Shown here: one piece after another, positions 24,527 through 56,439 of the stretch
Layout: every line of letters begins with the position of its first letter
How positions within the stretch are numbered: the stretch's first letter is position 1
Notes under the pieces: generated by a model
The model's database searches: none
The model's input: only the letters and a program-made list of their open reading frames with translations
Told to the model about the DNA's origin: nothing
Translations under genes and position numbers: made by a program
Assembly (NCBI GenBank): GCA_003209895.1
Contig: QCOH01000006.1
Location: 1-64,000 of the forward strand
DNA length: 64,000 bases
Source: Pelagibacteraceae bacterium AG-430-I06
GTDB taxonomy: Bacteria; Pseudomonadota; Alphaproteobacteria; Pelagibacterales; Pelagibacteraceae
Reading direction: 5' to 3'

Positions 24527-25672
24527 ATGATTAACTCACTAGGTATAAAAAAGTCGCCAAAAAATACAAAAATCGTTGTAGCTATGTCAGGGGGTGTAGA
24601 TTCCTCGGTTGTAGCCGGGCTTATGAAACAGGAAGGCTATGATGTTACAGGGATAACTTTAAAACTATATGACGACACTAAAACTTTAACTGATTCGAGA
24701 CAGTGCTGTGCAGGAAAAGATATAATTGATGCTAAAAGAGTTTCTGAAACTTTGGATATCAAACACAAAATTTTGTACTATCAAAAAAAATTTAAAAAAG
24801 AAGTTATAGACTCTTTTATTGACAGTTATGTTGGAGGAGAAACACCAATACCTTGTGTTCAATGTAATCAAACCGTAAAATTTAGAGACCTATTTAAATT
24901 TGCAAAGGAACTAGGTGCTGACGCATTAGTCACCGGACATTATGTGGTGAGATACGAAAAAGATGGAAAAGGGAAAATGTATCGAGCAAAAGACACCACA
25001 AGAGACCAAAGTTACTTCTTATTTAATACCACGCAGGAACAATTAAATTACTTAAGGTTTCCATTAGGATCTATAAACAAATCAGAAACAAGGAAAATAG
25101 CAAGTAAACTAAATTTAAATGTTGCAGAAAAACCAGATAGCCAAGACATTTGTTTTGTACCCAACGGAAACTATGCCTCGGTAATTGAAAAATATAGGCC
25201 ACAGTCTTTTAAAAAAGGGAATATATATGATTTATTTGGTGAAAAACTTGGATACCATGATGGAATTATTAATTATACAATTGGTCAAAGAAAAGGAATT
25301 AAGATTTCGAGCAAAGAACCTCTATATGTAATAGATATAATAGCAAAAGATAATTCTATAATTGTTGGACCACAAGATTGCCTGAATGTAAAAAAATTGT
25401 ATTTAAGAAATGTAAATCTATTATCAGATGACAAATTTTCAAATAATAGTGTTTTTATCAAAGTAAGATCAACCGGCAAACTTTTAAAAGCCAAAACTAT
25501 ATTTAAAAAAGATGAGAGAGTTGTTGAAATATTACAAGACGAAAGGGGAATTTCTCCAGGACAAGCATGTGTTTTCTATCACAAGGACGATATAGGAGAA
25601 AGATTACTTGGCGGCGGATGGATAGATAGAACAGTTAATAAAAATTTATCCACACAATTCACAGAGCAATAA
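24527..25672 (+). CDS. mnmA: tRNA 2-thiouridine(34) synthase MnmA
   Basis: [41 protein letters not shown]. Confidence 0.97.
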
Positions 25673-25676
25673 AAAA

Positions 25677-25710
25677 AACAACTAAAAGGTGATAGCTGTT
25701 TTTTCTTTTT
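25677..25710 (+). terminator. Terminator-like hairpin after mnmA
   Basis: aacaacta...tagctgtt stem (one mismatch) followed by ttttcttttt; A-rich flank also permits bidirectional use. Confidence 0.6.
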
Positions 25711-25730
25711 ATGTTTTAATGTATATGAAT

Positions 25731-25905
25731 TAAGAGGCAACTCTTAACTGGCCAGTTAAGGAAAAACCGAGAGGTTCAAGCTTAACGGGCAGAAAATTCT
25801 GCAGAGTAGTACTAAAATTGCAGGATGGTGGGCTTGGCGGTAGTACTAAAACGACGGGCCAAAACTTAAGTCTGCGCACCGAAAGGTGTGTAGACATGGG
25901 TTTTA
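25731..25905 (+). ncRNA. Candidate structured non-coding RNA, family unknown
   Basis: Markedly GC-enriched intergenic island with several hairpins; 11-bp stem with GAAA tetraloop and two G.U pairs only on the + strand; no plausible ORF. Confidence 0.65.
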
Positions 25906-26604
25906 AGATCTTCTCCAAAACAAATAAGTAAGCAAATAAAAAATAATCACACCAAAAAAATAGTTCCATTCTAATGCGTGTTTAAAATGCGTATTCCCGC
26001 TAGTTACAACTATCGGTAAACTTATTAAAGCTACCAAAACTAAAACCGTTACTAGAATAATTTTAAGGGTTAAGACATAATTATTTATGTGTTTCATCAT
26101 AAAAGATTTTAATTTAAAAAGTCTATATACTAATAAAGATTGAGCTATCACTTCAAAAATAATAAAACTTAATAAAACAAATCTTCTAAAAAATTTATAT
26201 AAATCATTATCGAATTTTACACCTAGTAACAATGAATGTATCACAAGAAATATTGCTGATATTATACCTAGGGTTTTGAAAAGATTTTTTTTATTTTCTA
26301 AGCCCTGATAAAAATTTATTATCTTATTTGTTTTTGTCCAATAAATTATAAGAAGAATAGAGGTAAAAATCATTCCAGGTTTAAAAATTAAATAAGCAGG
26401 ATAAGTTCTAGCGGTTCTACTTATAGAAACTCCTCCATCAAAATATGGAAAAGTAGAACCTGATCGTCCAATCTGATCAACGCTTAAAAATGTATTGTCA
26501 AAAATTTGGTAATTTACAGATATAAACAAACATAGATTAACAGCAATGAATGGAATAATAAATATCCATAAACTCAACTTTTTAATTTGAGTTCTCAGTT
26601 CCAT
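25903..26604 (-). CDS. Hypothetical multi-pass membrane protein (possibly Frag1/DRAM/PGAP2-like)
   Basis: About 6 TM helices; GGVSISRTARTYPAYLIFKPGMI and HFKHALEWNYFFG motifs. Confidence 0.5.
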   Translation of the reverse strand: MELRTQIKKLSLWIFIIPFIAVNLCLFISVNYQIFDNTFLSVDQIGRSGSTFPYFDGGVSISRTARTYPAYLIFKPGMIFTSILLIIYWTKTNKIINFYQGLENKKNLFKTLGIISAIFLVIHSLLLGVKFDNDLYKFFRRFVLLSFIIFEVIAQSLLVYRLFKLKSFMMKHINNYVLTLKIILVTVLVLVALISLPIVVTSGNTHFKHALEWNYFFGVIIFYLLTYLFWRRS

Positions 26605-56354: not shown

Positions 56355-56439
56355 GGGCAAGTGGCGGAATTGGTATACGCGCTAGTCTTAGGAACTAGTG
56401 CCGCAAGGCTTAAGAGTTCGAGTCTCTTCTTGCCCACCA
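56355..56439 (+). tRNA. tRNA-Leu (UAG), CCA encoded
   Basis: Acceptor gggcaag/cttgccc + acca; anticodon arm ctagt-cttagga-actag; long variable arm; T arm gagttcgagtctc. Confidence 0.95.

Follow-up and report, generated by a model that had tools for sequence, protein, structure and literature searches.

A gene for the catalogued marine RNA IMES-2 in a SAR11 genome, with covarying kissing loops and conserved gene ends

Results

The GC-rich patch downstream of mnmA is a gene for IMES-2 RNA

The window analyzed here is a 64,000-nucleotide stretch of DNA from Pelagibacteraceae bacterium AG-430-I06. Between mnmA and a convergently oriented membrane-protein gene lies a patch (25731-25905) with a GC content of 45.7%. 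The window as a whole has 30.1%, the end of mnmA 30.8%, and the downstream gene 25.5%. A preliminary description, made from the sequence alone, had remarked on this enrichment and proposed a gene for a structured RNA, read from the + strand of a Pelagibacter-type genome. A covariance-model scan taking in all 4227 Rfam families places a match to IMES-2 (RF02035) here, at 151.7 bits (E 1.2e-39) against a gathering score of 54.7 bits, and IMES-2 is the sole family above its gathering score at this locus. The patch is the gene for an RNA family already catalogued from marine sources.

Table 1. Features of the IMES-2 locus in the window
Feature	Position	Strand	Remarks
mnmA (tRNA 2-thiouridylase)	24527..25672	+	Upstream neighbor; absent in other contexts, so outside the RNA gene
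Conserved upstream box CAACTAAAAGGTGAT	25679..25693	+	Center about -42 from predicted start
Extended -10 element TGTTTTAAT	25712..25720	+	Predicted transcript start about 25727-25728
IMES-2 RNA, Rfam RF02035 span	25723..25862	+	151.7 bits, model 1-141 of 141
Hairpin 1	25730..25747	+	7 bp, GCAA (GNRA) loop; paired in 100% of cells, two-sided changes at four pairs
Hairpin 2	25748..25792	+	4x4 internal loop GAAA/CAAG, GAGA (GNRA) loop; 97% paired, ten pairs two-sided
Hairpin 3	25796..25826	+	First kissing loop; two parts 98.1% and 82.7% paired, 8 of 8 pairs two-sided
Kissing strand 1 (GUACU)	25809..25813	+	Pairs with 25842-25846
Hairpin 4	25831..25860	+	Second kissing loop; 98.6% of cells paired, six pairs two-sided
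Kissing strand 2 (AGUAC)	25842..25846	+	Pairs with 25809-25813
3' hairpin with U-rich 3' arm	25861..25904	+	Fold and terminator scan; outside the Rfam model
Convergent membrane-protein gene	25903..26604	-	Stop codon (25903-25905) overlaps the RNA 3' end

The locus agrees with the Rfam model from end to end, in its four hairpins, loops, and linkers as well as in its marine origin. Beyond the model, it carries a kissing helix that joins loop 3 to loop 4, a 3' hairpin, and an upstream box. The family was known beforehand, having reportedly been described first in a 2009 paper, and the finding adds no new RNA class; the novelty that the preliminary description had entertained for this RNA falls with the confident match. 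IMES-1 (RF02034) belongs to the same marine naming series but is a separate family. As a possible replacement for IMES-2, it was sought in 15 SAR11 genomes, the window's own among them, and did not turn up in a search run without a positive control. Identity with RNase P, SRP RNA, or alpha-tmRNA, already doubted in the preliminary description, found no covariance-model match above the gathering score at the locus; in P. ubique, RNase P, SRP RNA, and tmRNA sit at other loci (PMC2704228). Elsewhere in the window lie a glycine riboswitch aptamer (RF00504, 1169-1256, + strand, 77 bits) and a tRNA-Leu gene (56355-56439, + strand).

The RNA is on the + strand, as proposed. This strand carries the RF02035 match and folds at -69.1 kcal/mol (z -6.96, with 0 of 200 shuffles as low), compared with -48.0 kcal/mol for the - strand. 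An open reading frame of 79 amino acids on the minus strand that crosses the RNA has nothing to support its being coding, in keeping with the earlier view that the patch holds no credible frame.

Four hairpins and a loop-loop helix are supported by covariation

We tested the structure with 52 aligned representatives. The four hairpins and the loop-loop helix together comprise 43 base pairs, in which 97.6% of cells are paired and 30 of the 43 pairs show two-sided changes; none of 500 shuffles was as good, and slid controls gave 30-42%. The comparison with related genomes that had been suggested at the outset is thus positive, and the window RNA folded alone agrees with the consensus. Conserved unpaired bases are found in the GNRA tetraloops, the GAAA/CAAG internal loop, and the A-rich linkers, and no long conserved unpaired run of seed length occurs in the alignment outside the kissing loops.

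All four sequence elements singled out in the preliminary description are present where it had placed them, but two of them are not conserved as structures. The 18-nt palindrome (25743-25760) runs from the 3' arm of hairpin 1 into the 5' arm of hairpin 2; taken as a hairpin of its own, it shows no covariation. The gcagaa/ttctgc element (25789-25802) joins hairpin 2 to hairpin 3; read as a conserved hairpin, it has 60.8% of cells paired and no two-sided change. The 11-bp stem (25870-25895) is real and forms the upper part of the longer 3' hairpin. The direct repeat is likewise real, the two copies of its exact 12-nt sequence gtagtactaaaa being the loops of hairpins 3 and 4.

These two loops match each other closely across the family. 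In 51 of the 52 representatives, loop 3 (GNNCU) is perfectly Watson-Crick complementary to loop 4 (AGNNC), compared with a mean of 25.7 and a maximum of 37 over 20,000 partner shuffles (a gap misalignment in one row, L135, was corrected by hand from the sequence before this comparison). The loops are usually palindromic (AGCGCU, or the AGUACU of the window RNA), which alone would leave the pairing partner ambiguous. In nine representatives, the loops are not palindromic, and each matches its partner (AGCACU/AGUGCU, AGUGCU/AGCAC, AGAACU/AGUUCU, AGUUCU/AGAACU). A tree from which the loop columns were left out shows eight joint changes, against eight in each loop taken alone, so that every switch is matched. 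Judged by this complementary covariation, loops 3 and 4 are under selection to pair with each other. The kissing helix is absent from the Rfam structure line, and a covariance model cannot hold such a contact.

Side-by-side hairpins joined through their loops are known in purine riboswitches, which likewise hold two neighboring hairpins in parallel by loop-loop pairs. The likeness is an analogy only, since IMES-2 has no three-way junction, known ligand, or controlled downstream gene. It nevertheless favors a contact within one molecule, which is also the simpler arrangement for hairpins that are adjacent and separated by a short linker. Pairing between molecules, yielding homodimers or chains in an RNA-only assembly, seems unlikely to us, given that each loop in the nine non-palindromic representatives fits the other loop only. 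It would draw on the self-complementarity of the loops in 42 of the 52 representatives and on the precedent of the homo-oligomeric natural RNAs GOLLD, ROOL, and OLE (PMC12286853).

Conserved elements mark both ends of the gene

Of 140 distinct regions upstream of the RNA, 138 have a box with the consensus CAnnnAnAARGTGAT that ends 53-56 bases 5' of the CTGGCCA motif. Across the 140 regions, which include mnmA and non-mnmA contexts, GTGAT and the C 10 bases before it are near-invariant, and an extended -10 consensus (TGnTTTAAT or TGnTATTGT) follows at a fixed distance from the box. The box is retained at loci without mnmA and is therefore an element of the RNA gene, not of an mnmA terminator. 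The hairpin at about 25677-25702, originally taken for such a terminator, overlaps this box and is more likely part of the promoter of the RNA. The extended -10 element and a transcript start near 25728 are predictions from sequence; with this start, the center of the box would lie at the position of a class II activator site or of an unusual -35 element.

The box has a single match within the 64-kb window. Three other matches occur in the window's genome (G000:C2:9117, C4:54064, C24:2410) and may reflect chance or a small regulon. With these three as the total elsewhere in the genome, and their surrounding frames inspected, a genome-wide promoter element was rejected.

At the other end, the 3' region folds to between -19.5 and -28.3 kcal/mol in 52 of 52 representatives, despite widely differing sequences. 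We regard the hairpin predicted at 25861-25904 as a terminator-like end of the RNA.

IMES-2 occurs in unrelated gene contexts

The surroundings of IMES-2 were surveyed at 158 loci, with neighbor gene names taken as readings of translated frames. mnmA is directly upstream at 136 loci, 129 of which also have the convergent membrane-protein gene; this gene is convergent at 131 of the 158 in all. At 18 loci, IMES-2 is instead flanked by a tyrosine recombinase on the opposite strand and by an ogt-like gene (L033, L034, L044, L047, L049, L058, L062, L064, L070, L075, L096, L097, L102, L123, L129, L134, L141, and L142); the recombinase raises the prospect that IMES-2 could have moved with an integrating element. 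Two further loci (L152 and L153) have it near selO, rmuC, thermonuclease, or SRAP genes. Locus L163 of genome G032 is an empty site, at which the convergent membrane gene comes directly after mnmA and IMES-2 is lacking.

The position directly after mnmA at most loci, together with the placement just upstream of, and in the same direction as, the ogt-like gene at the 18 others, might suggest a cis-acting element, either a 3' untranslated region of mnmA or the leader of a neighboring gene. This reading is largely refuted, and we consider it highly improbable. The neighbors vary by lineage while the RNA, the upstream box, and the 3' hairpin persist; the downstream gene is convergent in the mnmA context; and at the empty site the two flanking genes adjoin without the RNA. 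The retention of the box and the terminator-like hairpin in unrelated contexts therefore argues against cis-regulation of one gene. By all sequence indications, IMES-2 is an autonomous gene that relocates as a unit with its own promoter-like and terminator-like ends.

In the genomes sampled, IMES-2 is restricted to Pelagibacteraceae and patchy within them

A pattern scan of public genomes returned at least 120 stretches, and all 80 records among the matches listed are annotated as Pelagibacteraceae, Pelagibacterales, or Candidatus Pelagibacter. Within Pelagibacteraceae, 181 of 298 genomes carry IMES-2, in one copy each. It was found in none of 32 genomes sampled from a second family of the order and in 2 of 288 genomes across the class, both from the window's own family. 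Several complete Pelagibacteraceae genomes are without IMES-2 even by a broader model built here, which also gave no convincing divergent copy in the genomes that lack it. This patchiness shows that IMES-2 is dispensable for the lineage. Of the earlier suggestion of a stable sRNA or housekeeping RNA, the structured RNA gene holds; a housekeeping role is less credible, as about 40% of Pelagibacteraceae genomes, complete ones included, do without it.

A phage origin was rejected, with no match in 50,697 phage records. The only viral contig with IMES-2 is an IMG/VR contig of 2149 bp (L151), which is phage-like in encoding a clamp loader and a DNA methyltransferase. Its IMES-2 copy lacks hairpin 1 and lies at the contig end (2042-2149), inside a palindrome, and the contig is probably an assembly chimera.

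The usual partners of regulatory RNAs were not detected

Genes for Hfq, ProQ, and CsrA were sought in ten Pelagibacteraceae genomes with and without IMES-2 (G000, G026, G029, G094, G038, G046, G032, G045, G034, and G093). None of the three was found in any of the ten, of which the window's own is about 78% complete, and control genomes were positive. An sRNA dependent on Hfq or ProQ and a CsrA-sequestering RNA of the CsrB/RsmZ type were rejected on this basis. The lack of detectable Hfq, CsrA, and ProQ in these genomes is unusual for small-RNA regulation.

6S RNA (RF00013) was found neither in the window nor in any of 12 SAR11 genomes, although the same search was positive in Caulobacter and E. 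coli. IMES-2 shares with 6S RNA its size class and its single-copy, stand-alone gene but differs in architecture, with hairpins arranged in a row and a kiss between two of them in place of the long, bulged rod and large central bubble of 6S RNA. The divergent 6S RNA that the preliminary description had kept in view is therefore set aside. IMES-2 could still be a functional stand-in, binding the RNA polymerase holoenzyme and tuning transcription globally; its similar length, single copy, and own promoter-like region, along with the failure to detect 6S RNA in the 12 genomes, would fit such a role. We nonetheless rate this as quite unlikely, as the fold offers no rod with an open-complex bubble and the distributions of the two RNAs are not complementary, since genomes without IMES-2 also have no detectable 6S RNA.

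Discussion

To the known family, the present analysis adds a kissing helix backed by covariation, a conserved box and a hairpin that resemble a promoter element and a terminator, a patchy distribution in single copy that is confined to one clade and includes an empty site, and the movement of the gene as a unit. The open literature searched, which did not include the 2009 description, mentions IMES-2 once in passing and gave no account of the helix, the box, the hairpin, the patchiness, or the relocation.

IMES-2 is probably the product of an autonomous transcription unit of the SAR11 genome, a stable, trans-acting RNA about 177 nt long that works by binding a protein. Locked alongside each other by the kiss, hairpins 3 and 4 would make up a rigid body, on which the GNRA loops, the GAAA/CAAG internal loop, and the invariant single-stranded A's may form the binding surface. 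Such a body could sequester or scaffold one protein, rather than pair with mRNAs. Protein binding in trans is favored because the RNA has, outside the kissing loops, no conserved unpaired run that could serve as a seed, which is indirect evidence, and because no Hfq, CsrA, or ProQ was found in the ten genomes, and a rigid RNA body of this kind appears to be the most likely reading of the sequence data.

Hfq-independent pairing RNAs do exist, which counts against this explanation, as does the dispensability of IMES-2 for the lineage, and the autonomous gene with promoter-like and terminator-like ends is typical of sRNAs. A regulatory RNA that base-pairs with mRNAs without Hfq is still doubtful here: the conserved bases lie almost entirely in helices or tetraloops, the kissing loops are occupied by each other, and neither Hfq nor ProQ was found in the genomes searched. 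There is an outside chance that IMES-2 forms the core of a ribonucleoprotein or RNA-only regulator of SAR11 not described before. It would then exert global regulation without Hfq, CsrA, ProQ, or 6S RNA, the kissing-loop-locked body serving for recognition and a dedicated activator site driving the gene.

SAR11 bacteria count among the ocean's most abundant cells, and IMES-2 is one of the orphan RNAs catalogued from them. With a defined clade, gene ends, a testable tertiary contact, and several of the usual partners excluded, this orphan motif becomes an experimental question, for which the empty-site genomes provide natural controls.
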